A DNA stretch of 64,000 bases, from the NCBI RefSeq assembly GCF_947499845.1, contig NZ_CANMPM010000003.1:62001-126000 (forward strand). Reading direction: 5' to 3'. Positions 38,626 to 55,144 of this stretch are shown one piece after another. The stretch comes from an uncultured Pseudokineococcus sp. Its GTDB lineage: Bacteria > Actinomycetota > Actinomycetes > Actinomycetales > Quadrisphaeraceae. Position numbers and translations under genes: made by a program. Each line of letters starts with the position of its first letter. The first letter of the stretch is position 1. The notes beneath the pieces were generated by a model, which saw nothing but the letters and a program-made list of their open reading frames with translations, was not told where the DNA came from and ran no database searches.

Positions 38626-41600
38626 ATGACGCTCACCGACCCCGCCCCCGGCGCGGCGACGACGCCCGCCCCCCCGTCCGGCGCGGCCCGCAAGGGCCTC
38701 GGGCAGCAGCGCGACGCGTGGGACGCCCGGGTCGCGTCCGCCCCCGCCGCCCCCGCCGACGACGTCGTCGAGCGCTGCGTGCCCGCGGCGCTGGAGCGCG
38801 CGCAGCGCTGGGTCGAGGCGACGAAGGGCCCGCAGGCCGCCGACGAGAAGAAGGCGACCGAGCGCCTCGCCTCCCTCGTCCACGACCCCGCCGGCGTCGA
38901 CATGACGATGTTCTTCGTCGACCGCGTCGCGCGCCCGGAGGACGACGCCGTCGCCGCCCGGGCGCTCGGCGAGATGGTCGGGGACGCGCTGCCGGACTTC
39001 CTCTCGGTGCCGGACAAGGTGCTCATGGCCGCCGGCGCGCGCCTCGCGCCGCTCCTGCCGAGGGTCGCCATGCCCGCCGCCCGCCTGCGCCTGCGCCAGC
39101 TCGTCGGCCACCTCGTCGCCGACGCCGGCGACCGGCCGCTCGGCCGCCACCTGGCGAAGGCCCGGCGGGACGGCGTCCAGCTCAACCTCAACCTCCTCGG
39201 CGAGGCCGTGCTGGGCCACGAGGAGGCCGACCGCCGCCTCGACGCCGTCCGCCGGATCGTCGAGCGCGAGGACGTCGACTACGTCTCGGTCAAGGCGTCG
39301 TCGGTCGCGGCGCAGCTCGTGCCGTGGGACGTCGAGGGCAGCCGCGACCGGCTCGTCGAGCGCCTGCTGCCGCTGTACCGGACGGCGCGCTCGCGCTCGC
39401 CGCACGTCTTCCTCAACCTCGACATGGAGGAGTACAAGGACCTCCACCTCACCGTCGACGTCTTCGAGCAGCTCGTGTCCACGCCCGGGCTCGAGGACCT
39501 CGAGGCGGGCATCGTCCTGCAGGCCTACCTGCCCGACGCCCTCCCGGCGCTCGAGCGCATCACGGCCTTCGCCCGCGCCCGCGTCGAGGCCGGTGGCGCG
39601 CCGGTCAAGGTCCGCCTCGTCAAGGGCGCCAACCTCGCGATGGAGCACGTCGACGCCGAGGTGCACGACTGGCCGCAGGCGCCGTACACCTCGAAGGAGG
39701 ACGTCGACGCCAACTACGTGCGCCTCCTCGACGTCGCCCTCACGCCCGAGCGCACGCGCTGGGTGCGCATCGGCGTCGCCAGCCACAACCTGCCCGACGT
39801 GGCGCTGGCCGTGGAGGTGGCGCGGGCCCGCGGGGCCGAGGACGGTCTCGACGTCGAGATGCTCCAGGGGATGGCGCCCGCGCAGGCGCGCGCCGTGCGG
39901 GCCGACGCGGGGCGGCTCGTGCTCTACACGCCCGTCGTGCACCCCGAGGACTTCGACGTCGCCGTCTCCTACCTCGTGCGCCGCCTCGAGGAGAACGCCG
40001 CGCCGCAGAACTACCTCTACGCGCTCTTCGCGCCCGACTCCGCGGGCGGGGCGCCCCTGGCCGACCAGGAGCAGCGCTTCCGCGACTCGGTGCGCCGCCG
40101 CTTCGAGGTGCCCGCCGCGCCGCGGCGCACGCAGGACCGGCTCGCCGAGGAGGCCTCCGAGGGCGAGCAGGGCCCGGGCGAGCGCACGACCGGCAGCACC
40201 CCCGACGAGGCGCTCGCCTTCACCGGCGAGCCCGACACCGACCCGTCGCTCCCCGCCAACCGCGTCTGGGCCGAGCGGGTGCTCGCCCGCGACCCCGGCC
40301 CCGTCCGCGCGGCCGTCGTCACCGACGTCGCCGCGGTCGACGCCGCCGTCGAGCGGGCGCGCGCCGCCGGCGAGGCCTGGGCGCGCGTCCCGGCCGCCGA
40401 GCGCGCCGCCGTCCTGCGCCGCGCCGGCGACCTGCTGGCCTCCCGCCGCGGCGACCTCGTCGCCGTCATGGCGCACGAGGCCGGCAAGACGGTGGCCGAG
40501 GCCGACCCCGAGGTCTCCGAGGCCGCCGACTTCGCCCGCTACTACGCGCGCAGCGCCGTCGAGCTCGAGCGCGTCGAGGGAGCCGCCTTCGCCCCCGCGC
40601 GGGTCGTCGTCGTCACGCCGCCGTGGAACTTCCCCGTCGCCATCCCCATGGGCGGCGTGCTCGCGGGCCTCGCGGCCGGGGCGGGCGTCGTCATCAAGCC
40701 CGCGCCGCAGGTGGTGCGGTGCTCCGAGGTCGGCCTCGAGCCGATCCAGCGGGCGCTCGCCGAGGCGGGGGCGCCCGAGGGCCTCCTGCAGCTGCTGCGC
40801 ACCGACGAGGCCGACGCCGGGCGGCGCCTCGTCACCCACCCGGCCGTCGACGCCGTCGTCCTCACGGGCGCGTCCGACACGGCGCGGCTCTTCCGGTCAT
40901 GGCGGCCCGACCTGCGGCTGCTCGCCGAGACGAGCGGTAAGAACGCCCTCGTCGTCACGCCGTCGGCGGACGTCGACCTCGCGGTCGCGGACGTCGTCCG
41001 CTCCGCCTTCGGCCACGCCGGCCAGAAGTGCTCCGCCGCGAGCCTCGTGCTGGCCGTCGGGAGCGTGGCGCGCTCCGACCGCTTCCGCCGCCAGCTGGCG
41101 GACGCCGTCCGCTCGCTGCCCGTCGGGTGGGGCACGGACCTGTCCACCGTCATGGGCCCCGTCATCGAGCCGCCGAGCGGCAAGCTGCTGCGCGGCCTGA
41201 CCACGCTCGAGCCCGGCGAGCGCTGGCTCGTCGAGCCCCGCCCGCTCGACGGCTCGGGCCGCCTGTGGTCGCCGGGCGTCCGCGAGGGCGTGCGGCGCGG
41301 CTCGTGGTTCGCGACGACGGAGTGCTTCGGCCCCGTCCTCGGCGTCATGGCGGTGCGCGACCTCGAGGAGGCCGCGCAGGTGGCCGCCGAGACCGGCTAC
41401 GGCCTCACCGGCGGCATCCACACGCTCGACGACGCCGAGGTCGACGCCTGGCTCGAGCTGGCGCCCGTGGGCAACGCCTACGTGAACCGCCACATCACCG
41501 GGGCGATCGTCCAGCGGCAGTCCTTCGGCGGCTGGGACGGCTCGACCGTCGGCCCGGGCGCCAAGGCCGGCGGGCCGAACTACGTCGCCCAGCTGGGCAC

Positions 41601-42255
41601 CTGGGCCGACGCCGAGCCGCTCCCGGCGACCACGGGCGGCGACGTCGTCCCGTCCGTCGCCGCGGTGCTGGCCGCCACGACGTCCCACGTGGGCGACGAC
41701 GACGCGGCGTGGCTCCGCGCCGCCGCCGCCTCCGACGAGGGCGCCTGGGCCGCCGAGGTCGGTGTCGAGCACGACGAGACGGGTCTCGAGGTCGAGGAGA
41801 ACACCTTCCGCTACCGGCCGCTGCCGTCGCTGCGCGTGCGGTGCGGGCCCGGGACGACGCCGCGCGACGTCGCCCGCGTGCGCCTCGCCGCGGCCCGCGC
41901 CGGGACGCCGCTCGAGCTCAGCGTCCCGGCCGGCCGGGAGGACCTGCGGGCCGTCGCGGCCGCCGGGGCGGACCCGGCCCCGCGGGTGCGGGTCGTCGTC
42001 GAGGACGCCGCCGCGCTCGGCGCCCGTCTGCGCGAGGGCCGGGCGGGGGAGCGCCTGCGCGTCCTCGGCGGGCTCGAGGACGCCGTTGCCACGGCGGCCG
42101 CCGAGGCGGGCACGAGCCTCGTCCCGGGTCCCGCGCTCGCCGCGGGACGGCGCGAGCTGCTCACCGTCGTCCGCGAGCAGGCCGTGAGCCGCACGCGGCA
42201 CCGCTTCGGGCACGTGCAGCGCCCGTCGCGCTCGCTGGACGCCGCCCAGGCCTGA
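38626..42255 (+). CDS. putA: Bifunctional proline dehydrogenase / P5C dehydrogenase
   Basis: A 1209-residue PutA that oxidises proline to glutamate in two steps, with FAD and NAD+. The proline dehydrogenase barrel covers about residues 60-480, with the substrate motif YLVRRLEENAAPQNYL. The aldehyde dehydrogenase part covers 520-970, with E768 (LLAETSGKNA) and catalytic C802 (GHAGQKCSAASL). A C-terminal domain of about 230 residues matches the extra ALDH-like domain of long PutA forms. The ribbon-helix-helix domain of enteric PutA is absent. It is followed by a 46-base palindrome. Confidence 0.95.
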   Translation: MTLTDPAPGAATTPAPPSGAARKGLGQQRDAWDARVASAPAAPADDVVERCVPAALERAQRWVEATKGPQAADEKKATERLASLVHDPAGVDMTMFFVDRVARPEDDAVAARALGEMVGDALPDFLSVPDKVLMAAGARLAPLLPRVAMPAARLRLRQLVGHLVADAGDRPLGRHLAKARRDGVQLNLNLLGEAVLGHEEADRRLDAVRRIVEREDVDYVSVKASSVAAQLVPWDVEGSRDRLVERLLPLYRTARSRSPHVFLNLDMEEYKDLHLTVDVFEQLVSTPGLEDLEAGIVLQAYLPDALPALERITAFARARVEAGGAPVKVRLVKGANLAMEHVDAEVHDWPQAPYTSKEDVDANYVRLLDVALTPERTRWVRIGVASHNLPDVALAVEVARARGAEDGLDVEMLQGMAPAQARAVRADAGRLVLYTPVVHPEDFDVAVSYLVRRLEENAAPQNYLYALFAPDSAGGAPLADQEQRFRDSVRRRFEVPAAPRRTQDRLAEEASEGEQGPGERTTGSTPDEALAFTGEPDTDPSLPANRVWAERVLARDPGPVRAAVVTDVAAVDAAVERARAAGEAWARVPAAERAAVLRRAGDLLASRRGDLVAVMAHEAGKTVAEADPEVSEAADFARYYARSAVELERVEGAAFAPARVVVVTPPWNFPVAIPMGGVLAGLAAGAGVVIKPAPQVVRCSEVGLEPIQRALAEAGAPEGLLQLLRTDEADAGRRLVTHPAVDAVVLTGASDTARLFRSWRPDLRLLAETSGKNALVVTPSADVDLAVADVVRSAFGHAGQKCSAASLVLAVGSVARSDRFRRQLADAVRSLPVGWGTDLSTVMGPVIEPPSGKLLRGLTTLEPGERWLVEPRPLDGSGRLWSPGVREGVRRGSWFATTECFGPVLGVMAVRDLEEAAQVAAETGYGLTGGIHTLDDAEVDAWLELAPVGNAYVNRHITGAIVQRQSFGGWDGSTVGPGAKAGGPNYVAQLGTWADAEPLPATTGGDVVPSVAAVLAATTSHVGDDDAAWLRAAAASDEGAWAAEVGVEHDETGLEVEENTFRYRPLPSLRVRCGPGTTPRDVARVRLAAARAGTPLELSVPAGREDLRAVAAAGADPAPRVRVVVEDAAALGARLREGRAGERLRVLGGLEDAVATAAAEAGTSLVPGPALAAGRRELLTVVREQAVSRTRHRFGHVQRPSRSLDAAQA

Positions 42256-42264
42256 GACGGCCGG

Positions 42265-42310
42265 GGTGGCAGCCCCTCGTCGTGGAAGAGCACGACGAGG
42301 GGCTGCCACC
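42265..42310. terminator. Long palindrome between putA and phoD
   Basis: Perfect 20-base arms (42265-42284 and 42291-42310) with the six-base loop GAAGAG. It lies between convergent genes and would terminate in both directions. There is no T-run. The sequence is not related to the A or B families, but size and placement are alike. Confidence 0.7.
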
Positions 42311-42337
42311 TCCGGCTGGACCCCCTCCCGGCCGACC

Positions 42338-44167
42338 TCAGCGGCGCGACGCCGAGCGGAGCTCGTCGCTCCGCGGCCCCAGCTCGTCCACCGGGCCGCT
42401 GATCCTGCGGGACCCGCGCACCGAGACGAACGAGGTCTCGTACCGCGTGACGGCGTCGGGGTCGAGCCGCGGGTCGACGGCCAGGCCCGTGTCGCCGCCC
42501 GAGGCGATGAAGTGGACGTCGGCCTGGACCCGCTCCGGCGTCACGTCGAGGACGACGAAGCCGTGCCCGATCCCGTCGAGGTAGCGCACCCACGGGTTGC
42601 GCCGCTGGAACGCCGCGGTGACGGCCTGCGCCGTCGCCGCGCCCCCGAGCGACTCCTTGAACCCGTTGCTCGTGACCGACGGGCAGACGTACTCGACGCC
42701 GACGGACGTGGCGCCGGGGTCGGCGGTGTAGGCCGCGACGTCCGTCGGGAGGTCGTTGGCCCACGAGGAGTGGATGTCCCCGGTGAGCATGACGGGGTCG
42801 GCCGTGGCGTCCGCCATCGCGGCCAGGACCGCGGCCTGGTCGGCCTGGTACCCGTCCCACTGGTCGGTGTTGAAGACGGCGCCCTCGGGACCGCTCGTGC
42901 TGAGCACCCGCGCGAAGACGGTCTGGTTGCCCACCAGGTGCCACGCCTTCTCGCTGCGGCGGAGGCCCTCGGTCAGCCACGCCAGCTGCTCACGCTCGGG
43001 CAGCTGCCGCTCCGGGTCGACCAGGGCCGGGTTGACCGCGCCGTCGACGAGGGCCGGCACCTGCTGGCTGCGGTGCTGCCGCGTCTCGACCACGGAGAGG
43101 TCGGCGAGGTCGCCGAAGGAGAACCGGCGGAAGAACTGCCGCCCCTGGTGGGGCTCCAGCTGCCAGTGCTCGGGCTCGCGGATCGGCATCCACTCCAGGT
43201 ACGCCTGGAAGGCGCGCGCCCGCCGCTCGAGGAAGTCGCCCTCGGGGCGGACCCCGTCGGCCTGCCCGGGGCCGGTGTACGGCGTCCCCGGGTCGTCCTG
43301 CTCCTCGTGGTTCTCGGCGCCGGTGGCGTGGGCGTCGTTGGTGATCTCGTGGTCGTCGAAGATGACGACCCAGGGGTGGCGGGCGTGGGCGGCCTAGGCG
43401 TCCGGGTCGGACTTGTAGAGCGCGTGGCGCACCCGGTAGTCCTCGAGCGTCACCATCTCGACGGGCGGTTGGTGGTCGCGGACGCCGACGAGCTCGCGGG
43501 GGCCGTAGCGGTCCCCGGACCCGGGGACGCCGGGGACGGCGGGCTCGTTGCCGTACTCGTAGACGTAGTCGCCGAGGTGGAGCACGAGGTCGAGGTCGTC
43601 GCGCGCCGCGATGCCGCGGTAGGCCGTGAAGTAGCCGCCCGTGTAGTTGCTGCACGACGCGAAGGCCAGGCGCAGGGCGTGGGTCGTGCCCGGCTCGTCG
43701 GGCGAGGTGCGCGTGCGCCCCACCGGGGAGACGTCGCGGCGCACGCGGAAGCGGTAGAAGTACTCGGTGTAGGGCTGCAGGTCGCTGACGACGACCTTGA
43801 CGGTGTGGTCGCGCTCCGCGCTCGTCCACGTGCGCCCGCGCCGGACGACCTCGCGGAAGCCCTCGTCCGCGGCGACCTCCCAGACGACGTCGCGCGCCGG
43901 TCCGCGACCGCTGCCGGGCACCGCCGAGGGCACCGGCGTGACGCGCGTCCACAGGAGGACCTCGGTCGCGGTGGGGTCGCCGCTCGCGACGCCGAAGGCG
44001 AAGACGCCGGCGCGCGAGAGGAGGTCGCCGACGGCGGCCCGGGCGTCGGCGGGCGTCAGCCCGGCGGCACCGGCGGCCGCGGCGCCGCCGAGCAGGACGC
44101 CGCGCCGGGACACGCTCCTCGCGGAGCCCGCGTCGGTCGCCGGGGAGGTGGGGGTCTGCACGCTCAC
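42338..44167 (-). pseudogene. phoD: phoD-like alkaline phosphatase interrupted by an in-frame TAG
   Basis: A PhoD-family phosphodiesterase/phosphatase of about 609 codons, exported by Tat (SRRGVLLGG) with Ca2+/Fe3+ cofactors in the family. The N-terminal part contains FASCSNYTGG and VLHLGDYVYEYG. At codon 258 (43394-43396) the frame meets TAG, then continues in the same frame with HPWVVIFDDHEITND, the catalytic block, and on to TGDIHSSW and a normal TGA. Only one codon breaks the gene; CAG is the likely ancestor. TAG is used as a true stop in neighbours (37239, 55144), so readthrough is unlikely. A base-calling error is possible. GTG 44167 is the likely start. Confidence 0.85.
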
Positions 44168-44335
44168 GCCCGGAAGGTCCCGCCGAGAGGCGTCGGCCGC
44201 TCGGCCGGCGCGTGAACGCCGCACGGCGGGCCGCCGACGGCTGAGGAGTGCGTGCGAGACGCTCCCGCCGGACGGCGAGGACCGGCAGACTCGTGCCGTC
44301 CCGCGACGGCGGGACGAGCCACGGGGGAGGCGCCG

Positions 44336-45388
44336 GTGTCAGCTGCCACGAGGTCCCAGCGGGCGGAGATCGCCTCCGGCACCTGGTCCTGCCGCGCCGT
44401 CGGGGCGCTCGGCGCCCTCGGCGGCGCCACCGCGTGGGCGTCGGCGGTGGCGTCGACCGGCGCGGCGCGAGCGGCCGAGCTCGCGCTCGTCGAAGCGGGG
44501 GCACCGCCCGGGGGCGACCCCTGGCAGGTCGACAGCGTGGGCACCGTCGACCTCGCCCTCCACGACACCCGCCTCGGGGCGCTCGTGGTGGTGCTCCTGG
44601 CGCTGGTGCTCCTCGTCGCCCCGGCGGGCCGGGCGGCGAGCGGACCCCGCTGGCCCGTGGTGCTCGGCGGCGGTGCGGCGCTCGTCCTGGGCAACGTGCT
44701 CGTGGCCCCGTCCGTCGGGGAGGGGGCGGGGGGTGTGCTCGCGGGGACGGCCGGCCTGCTCGCGGTCGTCGTCGTGGGCTGCGCCGTCGCCGCCGGCCTC
44801 GCCGCCGCCCTGCCCGGTGCACGGCCGAGCCGCGCCGGCCGCGACCCCCTGACGCTCCGCGGCCGGCTCGTGGGCGCCGGCGCCGCAGCGGGGACCGCGG
44901 TGGCGCTGGGCGTGAACGGGCTGGAGGTCGACGGGCTGGGCGACGGCTGGGGGTACCTGCTCGTGCCGGCGGCCGCCGCCTCCGCCGCGCTGTCCGCGGC
45001 CGTGCTCGGCGTCCTCACCGTCACGTTCGTGCTGCTCGGGCCCACTCCCCGTCCCGGGCGGCGGCGGCTCGCCCTCGCCGCGGCGGCCGCGACGCCCGGG
45101 ACCGCCTCCGCGGCGGTGCTCCTCGGCGGGGGCCCGCTCGAGGAGCTCGTGGGCCTCCTGGCCGGCCCGATCCTCTTCGCGGCGCTGCCGGGTGGACTGG
45201 TGTCCCTCGTCCTCACCGCCCCGGCGGGCGCGGAGATCGGCGTCGACGGCCTGCCCTTCGTCGGCGGCGGGACGCTGGTGGGTCTCGTCGTCGGGCTCGT
45301 CCTGTCGTCGCTGGGGTCGAGCGGGGGCGAGCGCGTCCCGGCGCCCGCGGTCGGGACGGGCCCCGACGACGCCGCGGACCTAGCGTGA
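44336..45388 (+). CDS. Hypothetical polytopic membrane protein
   Basis: A 350-residue, Ala/Gly/Val/Leu-rich membrane protein with about eight hydrophobic stretches, including LGALVVVLLALVLLVAPAG and GTAGLLAVVVVGCAVAAGLA. A short loop with PWQVDSVGTVDLALHD follows the first helix. GTG 44336 has GGGGGAGG upstream; the frame also extends to 44252. No family or motif is recognised. It is divergent from the phoD pseudogene and directly upstream of an epimerase-like gene. Confidence 0.7.
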   Translation: MSAATRSQRAEIASGTWSCRAVGALGALGGATAWASAVASTGAARAAELALVEAGAPPGGDPWQVDSVGTVDLALHDTRLGALVVVLLALVLLVAPAGRAASGPRWPVVLGGGAALVLGNVLVAPSVGEGAGGVLAGTAGLLAVVVVGCAVAAGLAAALPGARPSRAGRDPLTLRGRLVGAGAAAGTAVALGVNGLEVDGLGDGWGYLLVPAAAASAALSAAVLGVLTVTFVLLGPTPRPGRRRLALAAAAATPGTASAAVLLGGGPLEELVGLLAGPILFAALPGGLVSLVLTAPAGAEIGVDGLPFVGGGTLVGLVVGLVLSSLGSSGGERVPAPAVGTGPDDAADLA

Positions 45389-45392
45389 GGCC

Positions 45393-46391
45393 ATGAGCGC
45401 CCTCAAGGTCCTGTTCATCGGCGGCAGCGGCATCATCAGCTCGGCCTGCTCCGCCCTCGCGGTCGAGCGGGGGATCGACCTCACGGTCCTCAACCGCGGC
45501 AGCACGACGACGCGGCCCCTGCCGCAGGGCGCCCGGGTGCGGCAGGCCGACGTCCGCGACCCCGCCTCCGTGCGGGAGGCGCTGGGCGACGAGGAGTTCG
45601 ACGTCGTCGTCGACTGGGTCGCCTTCACCCCGGACCACGTGCGCACCGACGTCGAGCTCTTCACCGGGCGCGCCGGGCAGTACGTCTTCATCAGCTCGGC
45701 GTCGGCGTACCAGACGCCGCCGCTGCGCGTCCCCGTCGTCGAGTCGACGCCGCTGCGCAACCCCTTCTGGCAGTACAGCCGCGACAAGATCGCCTGCGAG
45801 GAGCTGCTCACGGCGGCCTACCGCGAAGACGGCTTCCCCGTGACGGTCGTGCGCCCCTCGCACACCTACGACAAGACCCTGCTGCCCTTCGACGGCGGCT
45901 GGACGGTCGTCGACCGCATGCGCCGCGGGAAGGAGGTCGTCGTGCACGGCGACGGGACGTCGCTGTGGACCCTGACGCACCACCGCGACTTCGCCCAGGG
46001 CTTCACCGGGCTGCTGGGGAACGAGCGCGCGCTGGGCGAGGCCGTGCACATCACCTCCGACGAGGCGCTGCCGTGGGACGCGATCTACCGGACCGTCGCG
46101 GCGGCGGCCGGCGTCGAGCCGCGGATCGTCCACGTGCCGTCGGACGCCATCGCGGCGGCGGACGCGGAGTGGGGCGCCGGGCTGCTCGGCGACAAGGCCC
46201 ACTCGATGGTCTTCGACAACACGGTCCTCAAGACCCTCGTGCCGGGCTTCGCCGCGACGACCCCCTTCGCGCGGGGCGCCCGCGAGGTCGTCGAGTGGTA
46301 CGACGCGGACCCCGCGCGCCAGGTCGTCGACCCGCACATGGACGGCGTCATGGACCGGCTCGTCGAGGCCTACCGGCCGCGCGCCCTCTGA
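45393..46391 (+). CDS. NAD-dependent epimerase/dehydratase-like protein
   Basis: A 332-residue extended SDR. The N-terminal FIGGSGIISSACSALA is a variant dinucleotide-binding loop, followed by LTVLNRGSTTTRP. VFISSASAYQT and the YSRDK motif (Tyr-x3-Lys) supply the catalytic residues. The pattern resembles the reductase group that includes plastid CSP41-like and UDP-glucose epimerase relatives in actinobacteria. It starts four bases after the preceding stop. The substrate is unknown. Confidence 0.85.
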   Translation: MSALKVLFIGGSGIISSACSALAVERGIDLTVLNRGSTTTRPLPQGARVRQADVRDPASVREALGDEEFDVVVDWVAFTPDHVRTDVELFTGRAGQYVFISSASAYQTPPLRVPVVESTPLRNPFWQYSRDKIACEELLTAAYREDGFPVTVVRPSHTYDKTLLPFDGGWTVVDRMRRGKEVVVHGDGTSLWTLTHHRDFAQGFTGLLGNERALGEAVHITSDEALPWDAIYRTVAAAAGVEPRIVHVPSDAIAAADAEWGAGLLGDKAHSMVFDNTVLKTLVPGFAATTPFARGAREVVEWYDADPARQVVDPHMDGVMDRLVEAYRPRAL

Positions 46392-52295: not shown

Positions 52296-53837
52296 TCAGG
52301 GGCGCCCGGGTGCGCGGCGGGGTGCGGGCAGCACCGGGCGGCGCGAGGGGACCAGCAGGTCCCCGCCCTCGCCGCGCAGGACGAGGCCGGCCACGTCCGC
52401 GCGGCCCGCGACGGGGCCCACGTGCTCGCCCTCGACCGCGTCGCAGCCCAGGGCGACGGCGGCGCGATGGGTGGTCGCGTCGTCGACGCCCGCGGCGACG
52501 ACGCGCAGGCCGAGGCCGTGGCCGAGCCCGACGACGGCGCGCACGAGCCGGGCGTCGCCCTCGCGCCCTGAGCGCAGGCAGGCCACGAGCCGGGCGTCGA
52601 CGACGAGCTCGTCCACGGGCAGGGCGCCGAGCGTCGCGACGGACGAGCGGCTGGCGCCGAGGCCCGTCACCGACGTCGGGACCCCGAGGACGGACAGGCG
52701 GGCGAGCGCCACCGCCGCCGCCGAGGGGTCGGCGGCCACGTCGTCGTCGTCCACGAGCAGGCGCAGGCTCCCCGGGGCGGCCCCGGCCTCCTCGAGGGCG
52801 CCGGCCACGAGGTCGACGAGGCCCGGGCGGCCTAGGGCCTCGCCGGGGACGCGGACCGCCGCCTGGACCCGGACGCCGTCGGCGTGCCAGGCGACGACGG
52901 CGCGCAGGGCGCGGCGCAGCTCGAGCTGCAGCAGGTCGGGGGCGAGCGCCGTCCCGGCGGCGAGGTCGCGCGGGGCCCGGGCGTCGTCCGCCCAGACGAG
53001 GCGGGCCGTCGCCGTCGTCCAGCGCCCGGCGCGGACGTCGAAGCGCGGCTGCCACCGCAGCCGCAGGGCGTCGGAGGCCGAGCGGCCGTCCTCCTCCGCC
53101 GCGATCGCGCGGCGCAGGTCGGTCCCGAGCCGGGCGAGGTCCGCGAGGCGGGCGCCCTCCCGCTCGCCGGGGTCGACGACGGCGACGCCCGTGCCCGCGC
53201 TGCGCGCGACCTCGAGGGCGGCGTCCACCTCGGCGAGGAGGCGGTCGGCGCAGCGCGCCGCGGCCTCGGCGGGGGTGGGGCGCGGGCCGGTCGGCGCCGT
53301 CGCGCCCGCGCGGGACCCGCCGGCGCCGACGCTGGCGTCGACGTCGACGAGGGCCCCGCCGACCACCACGCCCGCCTGCAGCGCCGCGCGCACGCGCTCG
53401 CCGACCCGACGAGCGCTGCTCGCGGTGCCGCCGACGACGAGCACGGCCAGCCGGCCGCCGGGGAGGCGGACGACGACGTCGCGGTCGCGCACGGCGTCCG
53501 CGGCGCGGCCGACGACGGCGCGCAGGAGGTCCTCGGAGTCGTCCCCCACGCCGTCGCGGCCGTCCGCGGGGAGCAGGCCGACGAGCAGCAGGGCCATCGG
53601 CTCGCCGGGGTGCTGCAGCAGGAGGCCGGTGAGCAGGCGGTGCAGCGCGTCGCGGTCGGGCGCCGTCACGACGGCGGGGCCGCTGCCCGAGGGGGCGGCG
53701 CCGCGGGAGGGGGCGGCGCCGGCGCGGGAGCCGGTGGCGCGGGCTCGTGCCGCGCGGAGCGGCCGGGGCCGGAGGAGGGCCGCGACCCGCCGGAGGGCGG
53801 TCGCCGCCCGCGGGGCGGGGCTGGTCGGGGCGCTCAC
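52296..53837 (-). CDS. Degenerate GGDEF/EAL-domain protein
   Basis: A 513-residue protein with a relic GGDEF-like region (about residues 60-230) and an EAL-like domain (260-495). In the EAL part the metal-binding Glu of EAL is lost (ARLVW), the EITE position reads LVDDDD, and the DDFGTG loop reads TGLGASRSS, while the structural LPVDELVVDARLV and VVAAGVDD parts survive. Cyclic-di-GMP hydrolysis is therefore unlikely; it may be a c-di-GMP receptor or protein-interaction module. No membrane segment is seen. The GTG start has GAGG upstream. Confidence 0.8.
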   Translation of the reverse strand: MSAPTSPAPRAATALRRVAALLRPRPLRAARARATGSRAGAAPSRGAAPSGSGPAVVTAPDRDALHRLLTGLLLQHPGEPMALLLVGLLPADGRDGVGDDSEDLLRAVVGRAADAVRDRDVVVRLPGGRLAVLVVGGTASSARRVGERVRAALQAGVVVGGALVDVDASVGAGGSRAGATAPTGPRPTPAEAAARCADRLLAEVDAALEVARSAGTGVAVVDPGEREGARLADLARLGTDLRRAIAAEEDGRSASDALRLRWQPRFDVRAGRWTTATARLVWADDARAPRDLAAGTALAPDLLQLELRRALRAVVAWHADGVRVQAAVRVPGEALGRPGLVDLVAGALEEAGAAPGSLRLLVDDDDVAADPSAAAVALARLSVLGVPTSVTGLGASRSSVATLGALPVDELVVDARLVACLRSGREGDARLVRAVVGLGHGLGLRVVAAGVDDATTHRAAVALGCDAVEGEHVGPVAGRADVAGLVLRGEGGDLLVPSRRPVLPAPRRAPGRP

Positions 53838-54022: not shown

Positions 54023-55144
54023 ATGTCGCAGACCAGCGCGAAGGCGCAGGACGCGCCGCACCCGGACGACGGGCGCAAGCCCGACAGCCCCGACGACCTG
54101 GCGAAGCCGACCGCGGGCTACATCGTCAAGCGCGCGCTGCGGGAGTTCTCCAAGGACCAGGTGACCGACCTCGCGGCGGCCCTCGTCTACTTCTCCGTCC
54201 TCGCGCTCTTCCCGGCGCTCATCGCGCTCGTGTCGCTGCTCGGGCTCTTCGGGCAGAGCCAGGCGGTGACGGACGGCATCACGCAGATCGTCAGCACGCT
54301 GTCGCCGGAGTCCGACGTCTCCGAGTCGGTCAACGGCTTCGTCACCGATTTCATCGACGGCCAGAGCACCGGAGGCGCGAGCCTCGGCGTCATCGTCGGC
54401 ATCCTCGGCGCCGTCTACTCGGCGTCGAAGTACGTCGGCGCCTTCTCCCGGGCGATGAACCGCGTCTACGAGGTCGACGAGGGCCGCCCGGTCTGGAAGC
54501 TCAAGCCGGTCCAGTACCTCCTCACGCTCGGCGCCCTCGTCCTCATCGCCGTCGCGCTCGTCATCCTCGTCGTCAGCGGCCCCGTCGCCCAGGCGATCGG
54601 CGACGTGGTCGGGCTCGGCGGCACGGCCGTCACCGTCTGGTCCATCGCCAAGTGGCCGGTGCTGCTCGTCATCGTCGTCGTCATCGTGGCGGTGCTCTAC
54701 TACGCGACCCCGAACGTCCAGCAGCCGAAGTTCCGCTGGATGAGCATGGGCGCGCTCGTCGCCATCGCGGTGTGGCTGCTGGCGTCGGTCGCCTTCGCCA
54801 TCTACGTCGTGAACTTCGGCAGCTACAGCGCCACCTACGGCGCGCTCGCCGGCGCCGTCATCTTCCTGCTCTGGCTGTGGATCACGAACATCGCCCTGCT
54901 GCTCGGCGCGGAGGTCGACGCCGAGGTCGAGCGCGGCCGCCAGCTCCAGGCGGGCCTGCCCGCCGAGGACACCGTCCAGCTGCCCCCGCGCGACACCCGG
55001 GCGAGCGACAAAAAGGACGCGAAGATGCGCGAGGCCGTCGACGAGGGCTACCAGCTGCGCCTGCGCAACGGCGGCGAGTCCCGCGCCGAGCAGGAGGAGC
55101 GGGAGGAGCGGGAGCGGCGCGAGGGCGTCCGCGAGGGGCGCTAG
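54023..55144 (+). CDS. YihY/BrkB-family membrane protein
   Basis: A 373-residue inner-membrane protein of the YihY (formerly RNase BN) family. Six helices follow the family start LREFSKDQVTDLAAALVYFS; GSYSATYGALAGAVIFLLWLW is the signature near the end. The C-terminal 90 residues are highly charged and cytoplasmic. ATG 54023 has GGAGG upstream. It ends in TAG immediately before the GTG of the DUF2254 gene, so the two are probably co-transcribed. The function is unproven. Confidence 0.92.
   Translation: MSQTSAKAQDAPHPDDGRKPDSPDDLAKPTAGYIVKRALREFSKDQVTDLAAALVYFSVLALFPALIALVSLLGLFGQSQAVTDGITQIVSTLSPESDVSESVNGFVTDFIDGQSTGGASLGVIVGILGAVYSASKYVGAFSRAMNRVYEVDEGRPVWKLKPVQYLLTLGALVLIAVALVILVVSGPVAQAIGDVVGLGGTAVTVWSIAKWPVLLVIVVVIVAVLYYATPNVQQPKFRWMSMGALVAIAVWLLASVAFAIYVVNFGSYSATYGALAGAVIFLLWLWITNIALLLGAEVDAEVERGRQLQAGLPAEDTVQLPPRDTRASDKKDAKMREAVDEGYQLRLRNGGESRAEQEEREERERREGVREGR

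Follow-up and report, generated by a model that had tools for sequence, protein, structure and literature searches.

The interrupted phoD frame and its neighborhood

The window, i.e., the whole 64-kb stretch of DNA that was analyzed, comes from a Pseudokineococcus genome of 3.72 Mb in 76 contigs (97.55% complete). It carries on its minus strand, a detail that the earlier note had left unstated, the reading frame of a PhoD-type phosphatase (42338-44167), which extends over 610 codons from a GTG start to a natural TGA stop. Codon 258 of this frame is TAG (43394-43396, minus strand; CTA on the plus strand), with 43396 as its first base, and translation of the frame gave no frameshift and no further internal stop. 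The PhoD model searched against the whole genome produced a single match spanning the stop (331.8 bits, one TAG inside), and the whole enzyme has no continuous open frame owing to the TAG at codon 258. The translation and the Pfam matches thus confirm the earlier description of an amber codon at this position, followed by a frame that is intact, DDHE block included, to its natural stop. The GC3 of phoD is normal (0.984/0.994). A promoter scan returned one terminator-like match, located inside phoD, and nothing resembling a promoter. Judging by titles and the opening lines of abstracts, none of the papers listed for Pseudokineococcus and phosphatases deals with this phoD.

The locus is bounded by two plus-strand genes that served as synteny anchors: the neighbor of phoD, which we take to be putA (38626-42255), and an NAD-dependent epimerase-family gene (45393-46391). 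A 378-aa ORF on the plus strand (44252-45388), without any Pfam match, is divergent from phoD, the two starts being 85 bases apart. A perfect inverted repeat with 20-bp arms and a 6-base loop (42265-42310) separates putA from the convergent phoD and is probably a terminator common to both genes.

Both the PhoD_N and the PhoD domains (PF16655 and PF09423) are present, placing the protein in the PhoD family. The piece upstream of the stop (43397-44167, minus strand, 257 codons) comprises the leader, PhoD_N (residues 59-154, 112.3 bits), and the start of the PhoD domain with Cys172 (residues 167-256, model positions 1-78, 75.8 bits), and the downstream ORF matches model positions 131-342 (168.5 bits). 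The leader contains SRRGVLL, presumably a twin-arginine stretch, and the intact protein would probably be a phosphatase/phosphodiesterase with predicted Tat export. Beyond the stop, no ATG, GTG, or TTG occurs before the ATG of codon 327; a piece restarted there (42338-43189, minus strand, 283 aa) would hold the rest of the PhoD domain and lack residues 259 to 326. The DDHEITND block (residues 271-278; 43334-43357, minus strand) lies between the stop and this first possible restart, and its DDHE (residues 271-274) is identical in the five relatives compared (5/5).

The complete frame matches PhoD of Bacillus subtilis (PDB 2yeq) over residues 56-568 (E 8.4e-84) and a second solved PhoD relative, 9uya, over residues 54-573 (E 3e-102). 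In the B. subtilis enzyme, Cys-180 is an Fe ligand and Asn-272 a CaB ligand, and a change of Asn to Asp at the CaB ligand occurs within the family (PMC4223295). We aligned our frame to 2yeq using a chain offset of 56, with which both ligand names fit the chain residues; the ligand mapping covers these two positions. Cys172 aligns with Cys-180, which places the protein in the Cys subgroup, and Asp278 aligns with Asn-272. Compared with B. subtilis PhoD, the frame described here is therefore severed between its Fe ligand and its CaB ligand: Asp278 is missing from the upstream piece, and both residues are missing from the piece restarted at codon 327. Because the stop falls between the two mapped metal ligands, neither piece should be active, and loss of PhoD activity should be the natural outcome as judged from the sequence.

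The amber codon in its genomic context

To place the stop against chance, we screened 464 kb of DNA (the 64-kb window and 400 kb of another contig), taking every stop with 50 open codons on each side and scoring codon usage against the other frames. The phoD TAG ranked first among the 273 stops of the window, with a two-sided coding score of 39.6, and outscored all 1728 stops of the 400-kb sample, where the best score (36.6) belonged to a TGA that is followed two codons later by a new ORF. We rejected the idea that in-frame TAGs cluster around phoD, as one of the two stops ranking next in the window ends a gene and the other lies in an antisense frame. The TAG at 55142-55144 ends a 392-aa ORF and is directly followed by the GTG of the next one, and the TAG at 52833 is antisense to a 513-aa minus-strand ORF (52296-53837). 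For the window's 12 other listed stops, the two-sided score is at most 10.8. Among the best 15 of the 1728 sample stops, nine lie on the plus strand, are followed 2 to 26 codons later by a start codon, and look like ordinary gene ends; the six on the minus strand have a higher-scoring opposite strand and look like antisense frames.

No other interrupted gene was recognized among the top-listed stops examined in the 464-kb screen, and none of the 88 ABC_tran matches in the whole genome contains a stop. Consequently, the assembly does not look error-rich. These two results count against the TAG being a sequencing or assembly error in a strain whose living phoD is intact, an explanation that draws its strength from the nature of the lesion itself: a lone substitution, without further damage, in a gene of normal codon composition.

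A different way of retaining PhoD would be reading through or suppressing the amber codon so that the full-length protein is still produced. The conserved downstream frame and metal-site residues would agree with it. However, a CUA anticodon was found in none of the 46 tRNA genes (45 loci read with ARAGORN), nor did the 464-kb screen or the ABC_tran matches show the many in-frame TAGs of an amber-recoded or suppressing genome. The 350 coding-like frame ends in the 464 kb divide into 318 TGA, 30 TAG (the phoD TAG among them), and 2 TAA, so that TAG terminates 29 other coding-like frames, such as the one ending at 55142-55144; the ABC_tran matches (0/88) likewise speak against readthrough. At 97.55% completeness, a missing tRNA gene is conceivable. 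Since no CUA tRNA was found and TAG ends other coding-like frames, readthrough is without support, and we regard it as very improbable. The earlier note had held suppression to be unlikely on the grounds that TAG ends other genes here, which the counts of tRNAs (0/46), TAG ends (30/350), and ABC_tran stops bear out.

The codon and the locus in relatives

Orthologues of phoD are open across the stop site in two other Pseudokineococcus genomes and one genome of the same family (G003, G001, and G007, at 84%, 78%, and 74% identity) and in Modestobacter and Blastococcus (69-71%); the single stop counted in the Blastococcus sequence (L064) sits at its C-terminal end. Within the family, just 4 of 13 genomes, including the present one, have a match with 74% identity or more. 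The column of codon 258 is open in all 20 aligned rows of relatives and reads CAG in 18 of them, or in 17 of 19 distinct genes, as two rows (L062 and L035) represent the same gene. The G007 gene likewise has CAG. The two other rows are ATG, in the G001 orthologue, and CGG, in a paralogue, which indicates that the residue is not fixed in the family. The proposal that a change from CAG to TAG would explain the stop fits this column. The CCTAGG surrounding the stop codon could, we assume, derive from a Dcm-type CCWGG site. Methylation-driven mutation as the specific cause was unsupported: a search for C5-cytosine methylases (PF00145), positive in 10 of 14 control genomes, gave no match in this genome.

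The closest relative compared is G002, whose putA, on contig C390, is 98% identical over 1116 residues; the dS of putA is 0.083 against G002 and 0.374 against G003. Query P0002 had no match in G002, and phoD is absent there between putA and the epimerase gene, on a contig (C39, 8362 bp, no N) that spans the locus. The interval is occupied by a GGDEF-EAL gene and by an ORF of 633 aa whose PQQ match stays under the family cut-off. The gene order in G003 is putA, GGDEF-EAL, phoD, epimerase; therefore, the ancestral locus probably had both phoD and the GGDEF-EAL gene, the present genome being without the GGDEF-EAL gene at the phoD site and G002 being without phoD. A stretch of about 80 nt in G002 resembles the 3' end of phoD and lies in the expected orientation beside the end of the GGDEF-EAL gene. 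When it was compared with the phoD tail of the present genome, its local score was reached by none of 436 background windows, and with the G003 tail by one of 436, but the resemblance is weak (tblastn E 0.083), and a wide DNA comparison yields equally good chance matches. From its sequence, this stretch is a possible phoD remnant.

That the nearest relative compared has no phoD at this locus suggests that the clade can dispense with the gene, and this in turn favors a real loss-of-function mutation in the genome studied here. By making a real loss plausible, it also argues against a base error, and for this reason the balance tilts toward a real pseudogene.

The interval between putA and the epimerase gene (42256-45392) is variable in Pseudokineococcus. 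In the comparison of the present genome, G002 (contig C39, L087), and G003 (L060), the GGDEF-EAL gene, phoD, the PQQ-like ORF, and the 378-aa ORF differ between species. The 378-aa ORF had no convincing match in the corresponding stretches of G001 and G002. In G003, its sole match, of 21 residues (E about 8e-4), lies between phoD and the epimerase gene and is perhaps a remnant. A near-copy of the inverted repeat persists in G002 (L087, about 267-316), though phoD is gone there.

Constraint on phoD and the meaning of its stop

Against G003, the omega of phoD is 0.358 upstream of the stop and 0.179 downstream, compared with 0.188 for putA and 0.149 for the epimerase gene. Of the columns invariant over 14 other phoD orthologues, the present gene differs at 6 of the 175 that lie downstream of the stop and at none of the 114 upstream (one-sided p 0.048); the corresponding values are 4 of 173 and 0 of 114 for the open gene of G001, with 2 and 2 changes in G003 and 3 and 3 in G007. 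Unique residues downstream of the stop number 27 in the present gene versus 11 in that of G003 when G001 is the outgroup, 18 versus 13 with G007, and 20 versus 18 with Modestobacter. For changes at codon positions 1 and 2, the 16 p values ranged from 0.004 to 0.79, varying with outgroup, comparison, and gap masking. There is no clear decay of phoD, which has neither a second stop nor a frameshift and whose downstream omega is not raised. Constraint has clearly acted on the gene over most of its history, and any relaxation is slight, its hints being weak and mixed, which indicates that the stop, if real, is recent.

Slight relaxation fits a recent stop and a base error equally well, and evolution alone cannot separate them. 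The lack of any consistent sign of relaxed selection is thus a further point for the error, which, weighed against the uninterrupted genes elsewhere in the genome and the missing phoD of G002, we consider unlikely but deserving of serious attention. The synonymous divergence of phoD between the present genome and G003 is also uneven (dS 0.32 in the 5' part and 0.55 in the 3' part), perhaps through old recombination within the gene.

The data give a hint, but no proof, that constraint differs between the two sides of the stop. One rival reading is that phoD now yields two separately expressed pieces, or that the exported piece of 257 residues has kept or gained a function. On the branch of the present gene, the share of position 1 and 2 changes is indeed smaller upstream than downstream of the stop in some comparisons (for example, 5/21 versus 26/52, p 0.066). 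However, all eight settings of the upstream-downstream comparison gave p of 0.05 or more, omega points the opposite way, and a restart at codon 327 omits residues 259-326 with the DDHE block. We consider this idea the most far-fetched of all. Hardly less remote is an older stop, with the exported N-terminal 257 residues (PhoD_N and the start of the catalytic domain) selected for a new, noncatalytic role while the rest drifts. Even taken jointly, readthrough and a functional fragment remain quite improbable.

The explanation that we prefer is that phoD is a recently inactivated, real nonsense pseudogene, to which we assign a probability of about 0.7. The earlier note had left the choice between a recent pseudogene and a sequencing error, a pair of options that the open site in relatives, the lack of a suppressor tRNA, and the single TAG support. 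In a real pseudogene, a single nonsense mutation would end translation after 257 codons, and the product, missing part of the Ca/Fe active site, would be nonfunctional. Such a loss may be tolerated, as PhoD seems dispensable in the clade and a PhoX-type phosphatase would still be encoded. The genome has an intact PhoX-family match (493.8 bits), and PhoA (PF00245) was not found in it. A second PhoD as a backup was rejected: the other PF09423 match (on C11) is not an orthologue and consists of a 739-aa ORF with DUF7800 and a partial PhoD.

In bacterial pseudogenes produced by a single nonsense mutation, one stop interrupts the frame, the orthologues of relatives are open, and a sister genome lacks the gene. 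The phoD studied here matches them in all three traits, and nothing sets it apart. The finding is thus an ordinary one; what is newly noted is the G002 locus without phoD, with only a possible remnant of about 80 nt.

For annotation, these results mean that PhoD should not be listed among the working enzymes of this strain. Should the stop prove real, one small clade of Pseudokineococcus is losing a secreted phosphatase in two ways, through point mutation and through replacement, and the present genome would have kept a PhoX-type phosphatase while losing PhoD.
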